Assembly (NCBI GenBank): GCA_026418875.1
Contig: JAOAAM010000295.1
Span: forward strand, 1-14,648
Direction of reading: 5' to 3'
Source of the DNA: Gemmataceae bacterium
GTDB lineage: Bacteria > Planctomycetota > Planctomycetia > Gemmatales > Gemmataceae
Length of the DNA stretch: 14,648 nt
Shown: one piece after another, positions 2,238 to 14,216 of the stretch
Numbering within the stretch: the stretch's first letter is position 1
Layout of the letters: each line of letters begins with the position of its first letter
Program-made: the position numbers and the translations under genes
Notes under the pieces: model-generated
Databases searched by the model: none
Told to the model about the DNA's origin: nothing
Seen by the model: the letters and a program-made list of their open reading frames with translations, nothing else

Positions 2238-5200
2238 ATGATGAACCGAGATTATCGCCGCTGGCTTGGGCCTCTCGTCGTGCGGCGGCCGCTACGGTTA
2301 TTGCTGCGGTCATCGCTACGATCATCGCTGCTATCATCGCTGCTATCATCGCTGCGGTCGTCGCTGCGGTTATTGCTGCGGTCATCGCTGCTTTATCTGA
2401 TTCCCTGGGGTGTGTCGCAGGCGGAAGAGCCGCACCTGGAATTCATCCGCGGGCTGCGGGCGGCGGGGGAGGCCGAGCTGGCACTCCGCTACATCGAGCA
2501 GCGCCTGCCGAAGGATCTGCCCGAACCGCTGCAACGGGAACTCACCCTCGAGTTGGCCCGGGTGCGGATGGATCTGGCCCGGGATGAGCCGGAACTGTCC
2601 AAACGTCAAGCTCTGTATGCCCAGGCTCGAGCGGAGTTCGAGGGGTTTTTGAACGCCCGGCCCGACGATCCGCAGGCGGCCCAGGTTCGCTCCGAGTTGG
2701 CCCGGCTGGTGGCAGCCCAGGGACGAGAGGCGATGAACCGCTCGCGACGGCTCGAAGGACCCGCTCGAGCCCAGGCGATCGCGGAGGCCCGATCCGCTTA
2801 CGAGTCGGCCGCCGCGCAGTTGGAAGCCGCTGCCAAGCAACTCGCCGCCCAAGCCGAGGGGCTCGCCGAACCCAAGTCCGCCGCCGAGGCCGCCCGACTG
2901 CGGGAATGGACCCAAAGTTGGTACACGGCGGAATTGGAAGAGGGCACCATCCGCTTTGCTCATGCCCTGACCTACGCCGCCGAAGCCGGTGAGATCCAAG
3001 TTCGCGCCAAGCTCATCGCTGCGGCGATGGATGTTTTCAAGCGACTTGCCGGGCGCGATCCGAAACACCCCACTTGCTGGCTGGCCCGCGCCTGGCTGGG
3101 ACGCTGCCACCTGGAAAATGAGGACTACAGCAAGGCCGCCGAACAGTTCGACGCCATTCAAGCCGAGCGCGGCATCCACGCCAACGACGCCAAGCGCGTC
3201 GCCGCCTATTTCCGCATCCTCATGGTCCGAAAGCAGGACTCCGACCTGGTCAAACAAGCGGGCATGTTCCAATCCTGGCTGGAACGTTATCGGCCCTACA
3301 TCAACACGCCGGAGGGCTGCGGCGCTCGCTACTTCCTGGCCGACACCCTGGAGCGCATCGCTTACGATCCTCAGCGCGGCGGCGTGAAGCTGGACGAACG
3401 CGGCCGGCCCGTCAGCGTCACCGCCGAGGCCGCCTCACGTTTGAAACAAGCCGAGCGGCTCCTCCGTGCCCTGACCGAATTCGACAACGAGTTCACCGAG
3501 CGTGCTGCCGCCAAGCGGATGCGTCTGCTCTTGGCGATTGCCATTCGGGAGACCCCCGAGCGCGACCCGGAAAAGGTCGATTCATTCGAGAAATGCTACC
3601 TGCTCGCTCTTCTCGAAGTCGCCGAGCTGAACGAAGACCTGAAAAACCCGGAATTCGCCGAGGACCCGGACCGCGTGGCGGAAGCACGACGCCAACGTTA
3701 CCAGCGGGCAGCTCGGGCGTTGGATCGGGGATTGACGCTCGTCAAGCCGTCTGACCCCCCTCGCGAAGTGCAAGACGCCCGGCTGCTGCACGTTTATGCC
3801 CACCTCATTGGGGGAGACACGGCGCAAGCGGCCACCTTGGGGGAAAATCTCGCGAAGCTGATGACCCGCACCGGCCGTGGTGCCGTCCCCGCGCTCTACG
3901 CCGTTCAAGCCCACCGGCAATTGATGCTGGCCGCCCGTGCGGAAAACGACCCAAACTCCGACGCCGCCGCACAGCACTGGCAACACGTCCAACGCCTCGT
4001 CGCCTGGATGGAAGAAACCTGGCCCGCCGAGGAAGCCACCGATTCCGCCCGACATCTTCTCGGCTCGATCCATTTGGCCGAGGGTCGCCCCCTGGCCGCT
4101 CTCGAGACCTGGGAGCGAGTCCGGCCTGATTACCCCAACCGTTTCGCCCTTCGTGGTGAGCAAGGTTCCGCTTGCTTCCAACTCCAACGCGATCCCCAAG
4201 TCCCCCCCCAGACCAAACAGCAGTGGCTGGACAAAGTGATCGCCTTGCTCGAGTCGATCCCCCGTCCTGACCCGTCCTCCGAGCCGGAAGCTCAGGCCGC
4301 CTTCTGCCAGGCTCGGATCCAACTGGGGTATTTGCTGCTGCAACAGGGGAAAGATTACCCGCGGGTCGAGCAACTCGGCCGCGACATCGCCGACTCGCTC
4401 GGCACCCTCCGCGTCGGTGCCAAGGCAACGGAGATCAAGGCCCAAGCGGAAACGTTGTGGCTGTACGGGGTGTATGGCCGAGTTCTGGAACACGTCCAAG
4501 CTCGCCGCCACGACGCCGCCGCCGAACTCTTCCTACCCGCCCTCGATCGCGTGAAGAAGCTCCCGCTGGAGGACGACCCCTCGGGCCGCCTCGCCAAGGC
4601 CGCCGCCGAACTACTGCAACTCGGATTACGCAGCAGCATCCAGCAGGGGAACATCGAACGCGCAGAAGAGATCTGGCAAGTCCTGAGCCAAATGGACGAT
4701 CAAGACGAGCATTCCCCCCTCGTCGGCGTGCTGCGCGATGTCCAAGTGCAAATTCGCGAGATGAAGCGGCACGACAAGCAACGCCTGGCCGAGACCATCG
4801 ATCAATACACTCGGTTCCTCGACTCCTTGGCGAAAAAGCCTAACCTCCGACCCGAGGCGAAAATCCTGCTCGCGCAGGGCTACTCCAGCCTGGATCTACC
4901 GGCCAAAGGTCTGGAGTTGATTCGCTCGATCCCTCCGCCAGCCAACCCGCGAGACGAGCCACCGCCGCCAGCCCCCTCCGGTTCCGACGACGATGCCGCC
5001 AAGTCGATGGATGAGGAGGCCAAGGCAAAGCTGGAATCGGCGAGGGAGGCGCAAGAGGCAGCCATCCGCTTGCATCGCTTCGCGCAATTGACCGAGGTTC
5101 GGCTGCTGCGCCAGTCGGCTCGGCTCGCGGCCAAGGACCAGGAAAAAACTCAGTTCGCCGCCGACATCGAGAAGAAACTGGACGCCATGATCGGCACGCC

Positions 5201-5639
5201 GGAGCGCCCGGGCTGGGCTTTCAACAGCTTGGAAGTACGGCGAGAGCGAATCTTCCTCCTCGAAGACTTGGGGAAATACCGAGCCGCGATGGATGCTTGG
5301 GTGGCGATGCAAAAGCCCTTCGCCAAGTTCAGCAATCCGCCGAAGGACGACCGAGAAACCCGGATGCGGGCGGCCTACTACGAAGTCCGCTTTTACATGA
5401 CGCGGTTGGTCTTGATGAGCAAGCAGAAGATCGCTGATCCCGCACGGCGGCAGGCCGAGATCCGCAAGTTGGCCGAGCAACTCGTCGAACAAGAGCGCGA
5501 TTCGCGGACGTCGGACTTCGGCGGAGCATCCGTACGTGCCCTGTATCAAGAGTGGCTTGCCGACGAGCCGGAGCTGTTGAAGGCTTACGTCGCCGCCGGC
5601 GGCAAAGTCTTGCTCCCGCCAACATCGCCCGCTCAATGA
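2238..5639 (+). CDS. Large exported TPR/alpha-solenoid protein (1133 aa)
   Basis: I recognise the architecture but not a named family. The basic N-terminus (MMNRDYRRW) is followed by a repeat-built Leu/Ser/Arg stretch (residues about 19-52) and then 'LYLIPWGVSQA|EEPHLEF', which looks like the end of a signal peptide with cleavage near Ala62. The rest is almost entirely amphipathic helix with Ala/Leu/Arg/Glu-rich helical pairs typical of TPR solenoids, for example 'ARAWLGRCHLENEDYSKAAEQF' split around residues 280-305, 'AEGRPLAALETWERVRPDYP' near 613-632, and 'LAQGYSSLDLPAKGLELI' near 877. A Pro/Asp-rich linker (PPPANPRDEPPPPAPSGSDDD, in two parts, about 897-917) splits off a C-terminal helical domain. 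Expected location is the periplasm. A protein-interaction scaffold is the likely role. The start at 2238 or 2241 has only a weak GGGG Shine-Dalgarno. It is followed 19 bp later by a second exported TPR-like gene, so the two are probably co-transcribed and may work together. Confidence 0.85.
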   Translation: MMNRDYRRWLGPLVVRRPLRLLLRSSLRSSLLSSLLSSLRSSLRLLLRSSLLYLIPWGVSQAEEPHLEFIRGLRAAGEAELALRYIEQRLPKDLPEPLQRELTLELARVRMDLARDEPELSKRQALYAQARAEFEGFLNARPDDPQAAQVRSELARLVAAQGREAMNRSRRLEGPARAQAIAEARSAYESAAAQLEAAAKQLAAQAEGLAEPKSAAEAARLREWTQSWYTAELEEGTIRFAHALTYAAEAGEIQVRAKLIAAAMDVFKRLAGRDPKHPTCWLARAWLGRCHLENEDYSKAAEQFDAIQAERGIHANDAKRVAAYFRILMVRKQDSDLVKQAGMFQSWLERYRPYINTPEGCGARYFLADTLERIAYDPQRGGVKLDERGRPVSVTAEAASRLKQAERLLRALTEFDNEFTERAAAKRMRLLLAIAIRETPERDPEKVDSFEKCYLLALLEVAELNEDLKNPEFAEDPDRVAEARRQRYQRAARALDRGLTLVKPSDPPREVQDARLLHVYAHLIGGDTAQAATLGENLAKLMTRTGRGAVPALYAVQAHRQLMLAARAENDPNSDAAAQHWQHVQRLVAWMEETWPAEEATDSARHLLGSIHLAEGRPLAALETWERVRPDYPNRFALRGEQGSACFQLQRDPQVPPQTKQQWLDKVIALLESIPRPDPSSEPEAQAAFCQARIQLGYLLLQQGKDYPRVEQLGRDIADSLGTLRVGAKATEIKAQAETLWLYGVYGRVLEHVQARRHDAAAELFLPALDRVKKLPLEDDPSGRLAKAAAELLQLGLRSSIQQGNIERAEEIWQVLSQMDDQDEHSPLVGVLRDVQVQIREMKRHDKQRLAETIDQYTRFLDSLAKKPNLRPEAKILLAQGYSSLDLPAKGLELIRSIPPPANPRDEPPPPAPSGSDDDAAKSMDEEAKAKLESAREAQEAAIRLHRFAQLTEVRLLRQSARLAAKDQEKTQFAADIEKKLDAMIGTPERPGWAFNSLEVRRERIFLLEDLGKYRAAMDAWVAMQKPFAKFSNPPKDDRETRMRAAYYEVRFYMTRLVLMSKQKIADPARRQAEIRKLAEQLVEQERDSRTSDFGGASVRALYQEWLADEPELLKAYVAAGGKVLLPPTSPAQ
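2291..2392. repeat. 12-bp in-frame tandem repeat in the signal-peptide region
   Basis: Eight full 12-bp units plus half a unit, of the form GCTGCGGTCATC with variants (GCTACGATCATC, GCTGCTATCATC, GCTGCGGTTATT), starting at 2291, 2303, 2315, 2327, 2339, 2351, 2363, 2375 and 2387. In the gene's frame they encode RSSL/LLLR/SSLL tetrapeptides. In the +2 frame they encode a purely hydrophobic Ala-Ala-Val-Ile pattern. The unit is four codons long, so gain or loss of copies keeps the frame. Confidence 0.9.
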
Positions 5640-6765: not shown

Positions 6766-6838
6766 GGGGCGGTAGCTCAGTTGGGAGAGCGCTGCAATCG
6801 CACTGCAGAGGTCGAGGGTTCGACTCCCTTCCGCTCCA
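6766..6838 (+). tRNA. tRNA-Ala (anticodon CGC)
   Basis: A complete 73-nt cloverleaf. The acceptor stem GGGGCGG (6766-6772) pairs with CCGCTCC (6831-6837) and includes G3:U70, the alanine identity pair. The D-arm is GCTC/GAGC, the anticodon stem CTGCA/TGCAG with loop ATCGCAC (anticodon CGC, reading GCG), and the T-arm GAGGG-TTCGACT-CCCTT. The discriminator is A (6838). CCA is not encoded (next bases AT), so it must be added after transcription. Not a suppressor tRNA. Confidence 0.96.
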
Positions 6839-7108
6839 ATTCGACGCTGTGCGACACGAACTCACGTCGACCACGATCCGGCACAACTTGGCCATCGGCC
6901 AAGGGTTGCGGTTCAAAAAACCTGAACTTGTCACGACTGGTTGTTTGCACGCTGCCAGACTTTTTGGCGTCCCTTGCGTCGGAATTTGCGTCACTGCCCC
7001 CCGCGCAGCACCCGCTTGGGAATATGCAATCGCTCTTGTCCGAGGCCCGGTCTGCGTCGGAACAAAATACGACGATCGGCCGCCCACCTTATCCGCCAAC
7101 GCAGCAAG
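6839..7108. other. Spacer between the tRNA and the MgtC remnant, no supported gene
   Basis: About 270 bp in which several frames are open, but none shows a recognisable domain, a good ribosome site or membrane segments. In particular, the N-terminal transmembrane domain expected in front of the MgtC-type C-terminal domain is absent. It may be decayed sequence from an integration or deletion beside the tRNA; I see no clear repeat of the tRNA 3' end in it. Confidence 0.4.
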
Positions 7109-7384
7109 ACCCTCACGGACGTGGAGACGCTCGATCATTTGCGGGTCGAGATGGTTCCCAGCCGCGGTGCCCACATCCGCCACATCCTCATGCGACACGT
7201 CATCGGGCATGAGAAACTCACGCTTCAAAAGATTGCCACCGAAGACGACGAGGGTGGACGCACCACCGTCGTCGCCACGATTGACTCACCCGATCGAAAC
7301 GACCGGGCCATGGAGGATTTGGTTGCCCGAATCAGCATCGAGCCAGAGGTGAAACTCGTGAGTTGGCAGCGCTCGGCTGCCTGA
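7109..7384 (+). pseudogene. MgtC/SapB-family C-terminal domain remnant
   Basis: The reading frame ending at TGA 7382-7384 carries about 90 residues resembling the cytosolic ACT-like C-terminal domain of MgtC/SapB proteins: 'AHIRHILMRHVIGHEKLTLQ' about one third in, then 'EDDEGG', 'RNDRAMEDLVARISIEPEV' and a final 'VSW'. Family members combine this domain with an N-terminal membrane domain of several helices, which is missing here. Resemblance starts near 7109 ('TLTDVETLDHLRVE'). Upstream residues in the same frame are Arg/Pro-rich and look like non-coding translation. No ribosome site fits a start at this point. I read it as a 5'-deleted gene. MgtC proteins are linked to Mg2+ stress and virulence/ATPase regulation in other bacteria. 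Confidence 0.7.
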
Positions 7385-7651: not shown

Positions 7652-9210
7652 ATGCGGGATGCGAGAAATCAGGGGAGACGCATCATTCCCGTGGCCTGGG
7701 TGCTTATTTGGGCTGCCGGCTGCTCGTGGGACCGCCCGCTCCGAGCGCCCCTGCCGCCGGGTCGACAAAGTCCGCATGTCGCCCGACCGTGGCATCGTGG
7801 GCTGGCACGTCCGAGCCTGGGCCAAGGGGTCTTCCCCGCGCAGTCGATCGCCCAGAAGTCGGGCCTGGATCGTCGCTGACCCGGTTGGGGCACAGGGAAG
7901 CAGGGCTGGTGGATGGGGGGAGCGGCGGATCGGCCCTGCCGCGCGATTCGGCGCGGGATGGTGCACCGCCACGATCTTCGCCCACTTCCTCGTCGGGGAT
8001 GACGCTGGATCAGATCATTAATACCACCCTGCTGGCCGACCCGAAGCTGCGGGCTGGTTTCGAGGCGATCAATCAGGCCCATGCCGAGGCGCTGCAAGCC
8101 TCGTTGCGTCCGAATCCGACGTTCGGCATCGCGCAGACGCTGTTGCCTTTGACGAGGCCGTTCACGGAGGATGCGCAAGGCGGGCCGCCGCAGTTGGATC
8201 TTGGGATCTCGTACCCGATCGACTGGTATGTTTTTGGCAAGCGAGCTGCGGCTATGCAAGCGGCCGCGCTTGGGGTGCGGGCCAGCGAGGCGGAATTCGC
8301 CGACCTGGTGCGTCTACGTGTTCTTGGTGCGGCGATCGCGTACTTCGACGTGCTCGAGGCACGATCGCTGGTCGATTTGGCGCGTCAAGACGTGGCGAAT
8401 TTCCGGCAGGTAGAGGCCATCACCCAACGGGCGGTGGAGGGGGGCGGTCGGCCGCAGGTGGAGTTGGGCCGCATCCGTTTGGATCGTTTGACAGCCGAGC
8501 AAGGGCTTCGAGACGCGGAGAATGCTCTGGTGGCGGCGAAAGCCCGGCTTCGAGCCATCATGGGGCTGGCCGACCACGACCCCGATTTCGACGTTCAGGG
8601 TAATTTGGAGGAAATCGGCGTCGCCGACATCCTACCCTTGGAGGAGGCCTACGCCGTGGCGATCCGAAATCGTCCCGACATCGCCGCCCTGCATTGGCGT
8701 AGCCATCAGGGTCGGGCGGAGATGTGGCGCGAGCGGCGTCAAGCCTACCCGGAGATGGTGCCGCAGATCGGCTACACCCGCTAGTTTCAGCGGAAGGCGA
8801 TCGGCTTCCCCGACGCGAGTTCTTGGGGCGTGGGCCTGGAGATGACTCTGCCCATTTCCGACCGCAACCAGGGCAACCGCGGTCGCGACGCCTCCGTTGC
8901 CGCCCAGCAAATGTGGGAACTTCAAGCTGGTTTGGTCGATCTCCGGGCCGAGGTCGTCGAAGCGGATCAGGAGTTGCGGACGGCGCTGGCCAATGCCCAA
9001 GCCGTTGCCGACGAACAACTCAGGCTGGCCGAAGACGTTCGCGATAGCTTGAGTCGAGCCTACGAAGCCGGGGGTCGGCCGCTCATCGACGTTCTCGACG
9101 CCCAACGGAATTTTCGGGAGACGTATCGCCTCTTCATTGAGAGTCGGGCCAATCTTGGACGGGCCGCCGCCAGGTACAATGCGGTTCTCGGCAAAAGGGT
9201 TGCTCCATGA
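7652..9210 (+). pseudogene. TolC/CusC-type outer-membrane efflux lipoprotein, frameshifted and with an in-frame TAG
   Basis: The ATG at 7652 with AAGGGG 5 nt upstream starts a lipoprotein signal: basic start, hydrophobic core 'IIPVAWVLIWAAG' and lipobox Cys24. That frame stops at 7877-7879. The main body continues in the -1 frame: 'MTLDQIINTTLLADPKLRAG' from 7999, 'ISYPIDWYVFGKRAAAM', and long helices typical of outer-membrane efflux (OEP) repeats. This implies a lost base somewhere between about 7735 and 7876. At 8782-8784 a TAG interrupts '...QIGYTR*FQRKAIGFPD...'; the same frame then runs on as the second OEP repeat ('ITLP'-like strand, 'LSRAYEAGGRPLIDVLDAQR') to TGA 9208-9210. CAG to TAG would explain it. 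Repaired length is about 519 aa, normal for the family. The product would be the outer-membrane channel of the tripartite pump encoded with the next two genes. As sequenced, no full-length protein is made. Confidence 0.85.
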
Positions 9211-10421
9211 CGCACCATCCATCTCCTGCTGCCCCCGCTGCCTCGACCCAAATACTCCCCACACCGGTTCGCGGCTCGTCGTTGTGGGACCGTTGTTGGT
9301 CCGCCGGCCATTTCCTCGTGGCCCTGTCCAGCACGACAGGTTTCCTCGTCTACTTGTTGATGGATCCGTTTGCGTCGCCGATGCAACCGGTCGAGCGGGT
9401 CGCGCCACCGGAAGAAATCGTAACCATCCAGGGGCCGAGGTGAATTCATGTTCGGCCGGGCAGCCCCTTTGATGAAAAGATCGAAGTCGTGGCGGTTCGG
9501 CGGCAACGATTGACCGAACCGACCCTGAGCATCACCGGCCGCGTCGTCGCCAGCCTGCGCCCGGGGCCGAATCACGAGAACGATTATTGGCAGTTCGACT
9601 CGGCAGAGAACCTGACGGCTTTTTCGGATTGGGAGAAGGCCCAGGCCGACGTCCTTTTCCTCGAGACGCAGTTGGAACGAGTCAAGCAATTGGCCGCCGC
9701 TCGCACGGCCGCCCAGCAAGAGTTGGTCAAACGGCTGGAAAAACTCGTCGAGGCCGGCACCGACACGGTCAAAGACCTCAACGCCGAACGCGCGAACCTC
9801 ATTCAAGCCGAGATCACCGGTCGGCAGGAGGTGCATCAAGCGGAGACGGCCTTGCGAATCGCCCGCCGAGAAATGGCCACCCAAGCGCGGAAACTACAGC
9901 AGGCCGGCTTGAGCATCGAACTGCTCCGCTCGGTGACATCGGAGGTGGACATTGTGATGGCCGATGTGCCCGAGGGGCGTTTGAGCCAAGTCCACATCGG
10001 TCAGGGATGCGTGGCTCGGTTTTTCGGCTTGCCAAAAGAGTCTTTTCCCGGGCGTGTGCAGAGCATCGCTCCCGTGCTGTCTCCGGAACGCCGCTCATTG
10101 CGTGTGCTTTTCACCATCGACGACCCTGATGACAAGCTGCGGCCGGGCATGTTTGCTGAGATCGGCCTGGGCACCGACCCCCGCGAGGCGATGCTGGTGC
10201 CCGCCGACGCGATCCTCCACGTGGGCCGCGCGGATTTCGTTCTCGTCCACGATGGCGAAAACACCTGGCGGGTAACCGAAGTCCAAGTCGGCGACCCCTA
10301 CCGCAACGAAATCCAAATCCTCGACGGGCTTGAGATCGGCGATCGCATCATCGGCCGTGGCGCGATCCTCTTCAAGCCGCTCGTCATCCGAGCCTTGCAA
10401 ACGACCGAGGATCGACGATGA
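9207..10421 (+). pseudogene. RND membrane-fusion (periplasmic adaptor) protein, interrupted by an in-frame TGA
   Basis: The start ATG 9207 overlaps the previous stop (ATGA). Residues about 35-52 (FLVALSSTTGFLVYLLM) form the single inner-membrane anchor. The frame meets TGA at 9441-9443 (codon 79) and then continues without shift as 'IHVRPGSPFDEKIEVVAVRR', followed by 'LSITGRVVASL' (lipoyl-type strand), a long alpha-hairpin (about residues 135-235, heptad-rich 'LETQLERVKQLAAAR') and a beta-barrel/membrane-proximal part ('VPEGRLSQVHIGQGCVARF', 'KLRPGMFAEIGLG', 'VPADAIL'). This is the order seen in HlyD/CusB adaptors. CGA (Arg) to TGA is the simplest origin. Reinitiation at GTG 9489 would give 310 aa lacking the anchor. 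Repaired length is 404 residues. The adaptor would bridge the pump and the outer-membrane channel. Confidence 0.87.
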
Positions 10422-13400
10422 TTGCCGGGTTGATCGCGACGGCGCTTCGCCTCCGCTGGTTCGTGCTGGTCATTGTCGCGGTGATCGCTCTCGCCGGGGT
10501 CTACGCTTTCCAGCGGCAGCCGATCGATGCCTACCCCGACATCTCCGCCCAGATGGTGCAGGTGATCACGGTGTATCCGGGCCGCGCTCCCGAAGAGGTG
10601 GAGCGGCAAGTCACCATCCCGATCGAGATCGCCATGCGAACCGTGCCCAAGGTCGAGACGATCCGTTCTCGGACGATCTTCGGCCTGTCGGTGGTGCAGT
10701 TGATTTTCGAGGAGGGCACCGAGAGCTACTGGGCCAGGGCACGGGTGCAGGAAAACCTGGCGGCGGTCGAACTGCCCGAGGGCGCTGCCGCCGAGTTGGG
10801 ACCGCTTGCCACGGCCTACGGCGAGGTCTACCGGTACGAATTGGCCTCCGACGGCACCCACAACCTGATGGAGTTGCGCGAACTCAATGATTGGGTCGTC
10901 ATTCCCCGGTTGTTGCGGGTTCCGGGCGTGGCCGAGGTATCGAATTTCGGCGGCCTGGAAAAACAATTCGCCGTCACCTTCCGCCCCGCCGACCTCGACC
11001 GATTCGGCCTGACGTTGAAGGATGTCATCGAGGCCATCCAATCGAACAACGCCTCGGCCGGTGGCAGTGTCTTGCCCCGCGGCAGCATGTCGTTCGTCAT
11101 CCGCGGCAGTGGGTCGATCCAGTCGTTGCGCGACATCGAGAACACTTACGTCAAGTCGGTCAGCGGGACCCCGATTTACCTCCGGGACATCGCCGCCGTC
11201 GATCTCGACCACCTTACCCCCTCGGGGATCTTCAGCAAGGATTTCCACGACGAGGGGGTCGAGGGGATTGTGCTGCTGCGCAAAGGGGAAAACCCATCCC
11301 GCGTCCTGGAGGGGGTGAACGCCGCCGTCGAGGAACTGAATTCCTCCATCCTTCTGCCCGGAGTCCGGGTTGCCCCGTTTTATGATCGGCAATACCTGGT
11401 CGATGCCACCTTGCACACGGTGTCGCACAGCGTTCTGTTGGGTATCACGCTAGTGGTCTTGGTGCTGCTGCTCTTCCTGGGCCGCCCGGCGATGGCAGCC
11501 TTGGTCGCGCTGACCATCCCCTTCTCGCTCCTGTTCGCCCTGATCCTGATGTTTGTGACCGACATCCCCATCGGGCTGCTGTCCGTCGGCGCGATTGACT
11601 TCGGCATCATCGTGGATGGGGCCGTCATCATGGCGGAGCACATCGCCCGTCGGTTAGGCGAGGCCCAACAGCGTGGCGACCATCGTCCCGTGCCCCGGTT
11701 CGTCTTGTCCGCTGCCCTCGAAATCGAGCGGCCGGTGTTTTTCTCCGTGTTGATCATCATGGTCGCCTACTTGCCCCTGTTGTCGCTGACGAGCATCGAG
11801 GGGCTGCTTTTCCGGCCGATGGCCCTCACCATGGTCTTCGCCCTGCTGGGGTCCCTGCTCTTTGCCCTCTTCGTCGTCCCGGTGCTGGCCAGCATCGTGT
11901 TTCGCCACGGCTACTCGGAGTGGGAAAATCCGCTCCTCGCCCTCGCTCGACCCCTGTACCGCCGGGTGTTGCAGGGGCTGCTCGCATGCCGCTGGCTGGT
12001 CCTGGCCGCGGTCATCTGCGCCGTGGCGGCGGTGGTCGTAAAGCTGATCCCCAGGCTCGGCATCGAATTCCTGCCTTACATGAACGAGGGCGTGATCTGG
12101 GTTCGCGCCAACTTCCCCGAAGGAACATCACTGCGGCAATCGAGCGCGTACGGTCGGCGAATTCGGGAGATCGTCCTCGAGTTTCCCGATGTCCGCTTTA
12201 TCTCTGTGCAAGCTGGACGGAATGACTCCGGCACCGATCCGTCCCCCCCCCAGCCGACTGGAGATCATGATTGGCCCCCAGCCGCGGGAACAATGGACAC
12301 AATTCCGCACCAAGCAGCAATTGGTGGCGGCCATCGGCCGACGCTTGCGCGATGAATTCCCCACCACCCGATTCAATTTCACCCAGCCGATCATCGACAG
12401 CGTGACCGAGGACACCAACGGCACATCCGCAAACCTGGCCATCGAGTTCTCCGGCAGCGAGTCCGAAACGCTGCTTGACCTGGCCCGCCGCACCGTCGAT
12501 CTCATCCGTACCGTTCCCGGGGCGCAGGATGTCAACATCGAACAAGAAGGGCCGCAGCCACAGCTCATCATCACCCCGGATCGCCAGCTATGCGCTCGGC
12601 ACAATGTCAAGATCGAGGATGTCACCGCCGTGATCAACGTCTCGCTGGGCGGCCAGTCGATCGGTTCGGTGTACGAAGGGGAGCGACGCTTCGACATCGC
12701 CGTCAAAGTCGATCGCGAGGTGATTAACTCTCCGCTGGCCGTGGGACGCCTGCCAGTCCAAAACATGGACGGTTCCCCGGTGCCATTAAGTCAAGTGGCC
12801 CGGATCGACCTGGTCGATGGCCAAACGATCATTGCCCGGGAGGGGAATCGCCGCCGCATCACTGTCCGATGTGACATTGTCGGCCGCGATCAAGGCGGCT
12901 TTGTCCGCGAGGCCCAGCAGCGCTTCGACGCAGTCATCCGTCCCGATTTGCCGCCCGGCTATCGTGTCGCCTGGTTGGGAATGTTCGAGAACTTGGATCG
13001 TGCCCGCCGGCACTTCTCGTTGCTGATCCCCATCCCCGCCGCCTTGATCCTGACGCTGCTAATGATCACCTTCCGTTCCTTCAAATCGGCCATCCTCGTC
13101 GTCGCCGGAATCCCCTTCGCCTGCATCGGCGCCCTGATCGCCCTGTACCTGCGCGACATGCATATCAATGTCTCCACCGGGGTGGGATTTTGCGCCTTGT
13201 TCGGTATTGCCATCATGGACGGCGTGCTAATGGTCCGCGGTATCAACGTCCTACGTGAGGCTGGGGAGGATTTGAAGCAAGCCATTCTCGACGGTGCCCA
13301 ACAACGCTTGCGACCCATTTTGATGACGGCGATTGTCGCCATCTTCGGCCTTCTCCCGGCTTCGCTGGCCACCGGATTGGGTTCAGACGTCCAGCGGCCG

Positions 13401-13529
13401 CTCGCTACGGTCATTGTCTGGGGATTGTTCAGTGCGATGATATTGACCCTCTTTGTGTTGCCCGTCTTGTATTACCTTTACCCTCCAAACATTACCCCAT
13501 CTGAAAATACGACGCTCATCGAAAATTAA
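10418..13529 (+). pseudogene. CzcA-like RND (heavy-metal efflux type) inner-membrane pump, +1 frameshift in a C9 run
   Basis: The start ATG 10418 overlaps the adaptor's stop (ATGA). The first part (10418-12250, 611 residues) has TM1 'FVLVIVAVIALAGVYAF', the porter domain, and TM4 'GAIDFGIIVDGAVIMAE' with Asp394, Asp400 and Glu407. This is the D-x5-D-x6-E proton-relay spacing of CzcA-type pumps. The frame then dies at 12355. Homologous sequence resumes in the +1 frame immediately after a run of nine C (12243-12251): '...GTDPSPP' joins 'SRLEIMIGPQPREQW', if one C is removed. The second part (12252-13529, 425 residues) has the second porter half and TMs 8-12 ('GVGFCALFGIAIMDGVLMV'). Joined length is about 1036 aa, normal for the family. 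Predicted role: H+-driven export of divalent metal ions. Metal specificity cannot be read from the sequence. The start ATG 12189 of the second open frame is an internal artefact. Confidence 0.9.
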
Positions 13530-13581: not shown

Positions 13582-13720
13582 GGATCGGCACCTCGTCGCG
13601 TGGTTCCGAAACCGTTCCGAACACGGATGCGGCCCAACATCGACATTCATCAGGCGGAAAATTCATTCAACACAATCGCCGTCCTCTTCGCATGCCTGCT
13701 GCCGTCGAACTCGGAAAACG

Positions 13721-13791
13721 CAAACGCCGCGCGGTTGGGCAAACGCCGAGCGGTTGAGCAAACGCCGAGCGGTTGAGCAAACGCCGCGCGG
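13721..13791. repeat. 19-bp tandem repeat, 3.7 copies
   Basis: Units start at 13721, 13740, 13759 and 13778 (the last is 14 bp). The consensus is CAAACGCCGAGCGGTTGAG; the two middle copies are identical, and the outer copies carry GCGCGG in place of GAGCGG. The core GCCGCGCGG is itself nearly palindromic. Confidence 0.9.
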
Positions 13792-14174: not shown

Positions 14175-14216
14175 CTTGGGATCGGTTTGAAGCGTTCGAA
14201 GTGAGGTGGTCCGTCG

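Follow-up and report, generated by a model that had tools for sequence, protein, structure and literature searches.

Does the operon at positions 7652-13529 of this window still code for a metal-efflux pump, or has selection on it ended, and if so how recently? The window, that is, the whole stretch of 14,648 nucleotides that we analysed, is an entire contig (C634) of a draft genome that consists of 816 contigs and is 83% complete. The first-pass annotation had described a tripartite metal-efflux operon whose three overlapping genes carry four disruptions. We therefore begin with the genes of the window and their surroundings, which are:

left part of the window, plus strand: end of a DUF1559 protein (ORF/Pfam)
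left of the tRNA-Ala gene, plus strand: class-III aminotransferase gene (ORF/Pfam)
left of the tRNA-Ala gene, plus strand: large protein, weakly matching TPR (Pfam)
left of the tRNA-Ala gene, plus strand: 350-aa protein without a Pfam family
6766..6838, plus strand: tRNA-Ala gene, anticodon CGC
7652..9210, plus strand: outer-membrane channel gene (OEP/TolC family), broken (OEP in both pieces; alignment to relatives)
9207..10421, plus strand: adaptor gene (RND membrane fusion protein), broken (HlyD_D23; RND_mfp)
10418..13529, plus strand: CusA/CzcA-type RND transporter gene, broken into two frames (10418-12355 and 12189-13529)
from 14217, right of the operon, minus strand: end of a protein with an ABC transporter C-terminal domain

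The domain content agrees with the annotated identity of the operon: an OEP channel and an HlyD_D23 adaptor gene precede a CusA/CzcA-type RND transporter gene, the layout of heavy-metal (HME-RND) efflux operons. The two transporter pieces match residues 2-610 and 610-1019 of ACR_tran, and for both the best NCBIfam model is TIGR00914 (CusA/CzcA heavy metal efflux), with 528.9 and 350.6 bits; each piece alone falls below the whole-protein cut-off of 701.45, whereas the intact transporters of two relatives, L028 and L038, score 898 and 902. For the adaptor, RND_mfp is the best NCBIfam model, its 93.7 bits lying below the cut-off of 94.9. The channel ATG at 7652 opens what we take to be a lipoprotein-like start. 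From the family, we infer that the pump would have exported metal ions. Named relatives that bear the pump are mostly Gemmatales and Gemmataceae. The CusA/CzcA (TIGR00914, CzcCBA type) operons of L028, L038, L029 and L030 have the same gene order of channel, adaptor and transporter with overlapping ends, and their transporters share about 80-90% protein identity with the pieces in the window. No further copy of the pump turned up in this genome, an absence that is not final in an assembly 83% complete. The genome's other two RND genes (on contigs C375 and C515) have open frames; they were rejected as spare copies, since both miss the TIGR00914 cut-off and score best with multidrug models, themselves below cut-off.

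The lesions were read from a DNA alignment with 10 relatives and lie as follows:

7652..7998, plus strand: variable N-terminal linker of the channel with a net frame break, the first frame closing at TGA 7877-7879
8782..8784, plus strand: channel gene interrupted by an in-frame TAG where aligned relatives have Gln (alignment)
9441..9443, plus strand: adaptor gene interrupted by an in-frame TGA, the codon varying among relatives (alignment)
12243..12251, plus strand: run of nine C with a frameshift in the transporter gene, one base more than in relatives (spacing, alignment)

All four disruptions claimed in the annotation are present in the sequence and distinguish it from its intact relatives. 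In the channel gene, the ATG at 7652 and the conserved domain, which begins at 7999, stand in different frames 347 bases apart; as the linker between them is not conserved, the break can be placed only within the linker. At the TAG, all eight relatives that have the channel gene code for Gln (CAG in 6, CAA in 2), the remaining two of the 10 aligned relatives having no channel gene at this position. The codon replaced by the TGA of the adaptor is variable: CTG in three of the 10 relatives, and CTA, TTG, CGA, CGG, TGC, AGC and CAA in one each, so its parent codon is not established. Both stops had been read as C-to-T changes. The alignment agrees for the TAG, but not for the derivation of the TGA from CGA, a codon present in one relative of ten, while L028, the nearest in the tree, has CTG. 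At the C run, all 10 aligned relatives are one column shorter than the window; likewise, 19 bases separate the transporter pieces in the window versus 18 in each of the 13 fetched relative loci (12 genomes) that were listed with both pieces. The annotation had proposed a comparison with intact operons. All three pump genes are open in L028, L038, L029 and L030, where the window has a lesion in each gene, and each of the 14 transporter orthologues listed with at least 60% identity has a frame of 1,031 codons or more that contains no stop. With its frames disrupted and its orthologues intact, the operon has the marks of a set of pseudogenes.

The list of four lesions proved incomplete, as the decay extends upstream of the pump:

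7094..7375, plus strand: what is left of an mgtC-family gene, its C-terminal part (MgtC_SapB_C) without the membrane domain

This stretch matches MgtC_SapB_C with an E value of 6.2e-16 and aligns at 51% identity with residues 171-264 of the L030 MgtC (271 aa). In L030, an intact MgtC-family gene follows a P-type ATPase gene and precedes the same operon. The mgtC gene of the window, cut off on its 5' side, is a fifth lesion. As a separate observation, P-type ATPase genes lie near RND operons of the same type in L030 (3-2449, with mgtC; Gemmataceae) and in two Methylococcaceae-type genomes (L033, 1314-3014; L034, 9225-10925), which hints that P-type ATPase and RND operon form a recurring module.

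Where did the block come from? Similarity to a genome of the same genus, G001, stops at 6838, the last base of the tRNA-Ala gene, and resumes at 14215 on another G001 contig. A search of G001, which is only 75% complete, yielded no closely related pump (best E 2.9e-44). The tree of pumps joins the window (family f1) to L028, which belongs to another family (f2), with support of 100/99, and the pump is present at 60% identity or more in 11 of 49 same-family genomes, the window's own included. Since synteny ends at the tRNA, the same-genus genome is without a close pump and the nearest pump in the tree comes from another family, the block was likely gained horizontally. Its GC content is similar to that of the left flank, and foreign composition was accordingly rejected as a sign of origin. 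As in tRNA-associated genomic islands, a lineage-specific block begins at the 3' end of a tRNA gene, as judged against one same-genus genome that is 75% complete. Unlike such islands, the block has no attachment repeat of the tRNA end within the window, whose contig ends soon after the operon. Among the frames given to Pfam there was no integrase. A tRNA-Ser gene lies at 2725-2811 of L038, about 400 bases before the intact operon, a position that again resembles that of tRNA-associated islands.

The annotation had also proposed that selection was lost recently, the proteins being still well preserved, and had asked for dN/dS along the operon. Our rate comparisons used the pieces as they stand, with the lesions unmended. 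Pairwise NG86 omega over the whole operon is 0.07-0.10 (computable for 5 of 8 pairs); at a dS of 1.4-2.2, these values speak only for a purifying history. Among the conserved columns, defined as those common to all other rows, the window has changed 10 of 707, compared with 5 of 702 in L028, 7 of 704 in L038, 9 of 706 in L029 and 8 of 705 in L030. The tree tip of the window is 0.093 long and that of its sister 0.089. Relative-rate tests over the whole operon, of the window versus L028 and L038 with three outgroups, gave chi-squares of 0.21, 0.35, 0.56, 2.24, 2.66 and 4.1, with more unique changes in the window than in the intact partner in all six comparisons. The protein has thus changed little beyond its intact relatives, the window being slightly faster. 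Since protein evolution, lesions aside, is nearly like that of intact relatives, the loss is recent, and selection on the pump likely ended only a short time ago. Taking the two stops together with the small excess of conserved changes, we estimate neutral divergence since the loss at about 0.4% (support 0.1-0.9%). At this divergence the probability of two or more stops is 0.12, so the number of stops is somewhat high given how few other changes there are. The chance of two stops landing in the operon, 0.013, is only indicative, because the operon was picked for its lesions.

Taken together, we consider it highly probable that this is a horizontally gained CzcCBA-type operon beside a tRNA-Ala gene, with a lesion in each gene, on which selection has recently ended. 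Every one of the three genes carries a stop codon or a frameshift, so that the cell likely makes the pump no more. The block would have arrived, an mgtC gene included, once the lineage had diverged from the same-genus species; the pump may then have become useless, or one gene may have been hit, and further stops and indels would have accumulated neutrally. We regard as improbable the alternative that the module was selected against after its arrival and purged for its cost, as opposed to drifting to death. If this were so, every gene including mgtC would have been inactivated while neutral divergence was still well below 1%, and the disrupted version would have spread through the sampled population.

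Could the decay instead be an artefact, with the genes intact in the cell and the lesions made by a poor short-read assembly? The assembly quality is poor. Adapter-like sequence, presumably Nextera, stands untrimmed at the contig end (14620-14648) and recurs on 37 or more further contigs of the genome, a lower bound since 40 of 160 candidates were scored. One lesion sits in a run of nine C, and the protein pieces are well conserved apart from the lesions. Against this, the broken proteins recur in a protein collection: exact copies come from 6 contigs for the transporter fragment (645 aa, including the frameshifted tail), from 4 for the channel fragment (261 aa, up to the TAG) and from 5 for the adaptor fragment (310 aa, beginning after the TGA), although the window's own contig may be among them, as may reassemblies of one data set. 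The longest contig for each of these proteins has 23,328 bases, compared with the 14,648 of the window's contig. Because the fragments occur on several contigs, one of them longer than ours, an error of one assembly is an unlikely source of the TAG, of an interruption upstream of 9489 and of the C run. Elsewhere in the genome, 87 matches to ABC_tran and Pkinase, together 46,113 matched bases, were screened for internal stops and contain none; of 11 suspicious junctions between neighbours, drawn from 13 readable sample contigs, nine join different or complete Pfam families, two have no family and none splits a family. Finally, the truncation of mgtC is not a point error. We therefore hold it to be quite improbable that assembly or sequencing error accounts for the lesions. 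Stop-codon recoding was rejected as well, all 87 matches being free of internal stops.

Real lesions might still leave a functional locus. At nine C, the run at the frameshift exceeds its counterparts in the 10 aligned relatives (up to 7) and could be a phase-variable tract by which the transporter is switched on and off. No tract, however, can switch the stop codons of the channel and the adaptor, the same frameshifted transporter protein occurs on 6 contigs, and among the 120 homologues listed (from 7,996 candidates sharing most words that were scored) there is no unbroken protein above 91% identity; reversible switching is accordingly a very remote prospect. Equally hard to credit is the idea that the fragments still work, the split transporter assembling with its shortened partners or having taken on a new role: an ATG at 12189 does open the second transporter frame ahead of the frameshift and the pieces are well conserved, but channel and adaptor are likewise broken, the conservation needs nothing beyond recency, and 116 of the 120 listed homologues are at least 1,024 aa long, the window's fragment being one of the other four.

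The locus illustrates a known process, and does so with good support: an accessory operon undergoing ordinary pseudogenisation. In its essentials, the reading given in the annotation holds. Kuo and Ochman 2010 (PMC2916853) describe young bacterial pseudogenes as usually removed fast in Salmonella; the operon resembles such young pseudogenes in its few lesions and little excess protein change, and differs in being a whole operon, probably horizontally gained, in an uncultured planctomycete and known from assemblies alone. Among the titles and abstract openings covered by a literature search, we found no published description of this operon. The pump is a datable accessory operon, probably horizontally gained, caught between loss of use and deletion, and the intact operons of relatives allow comparison. 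There is also a practical side: gene collections list the fragments as separate proteins, so that counts of metal resistance in metagenomes can include dead pumps.

Tandem repeats occur on both sides of the operon. On its 3' side lies a 19-base repeat in 3.8 copies (13720-13791), and a 12-base unit is repeated 8.5 times at 2290-2391, within the start of the long ORF 2238-5639.
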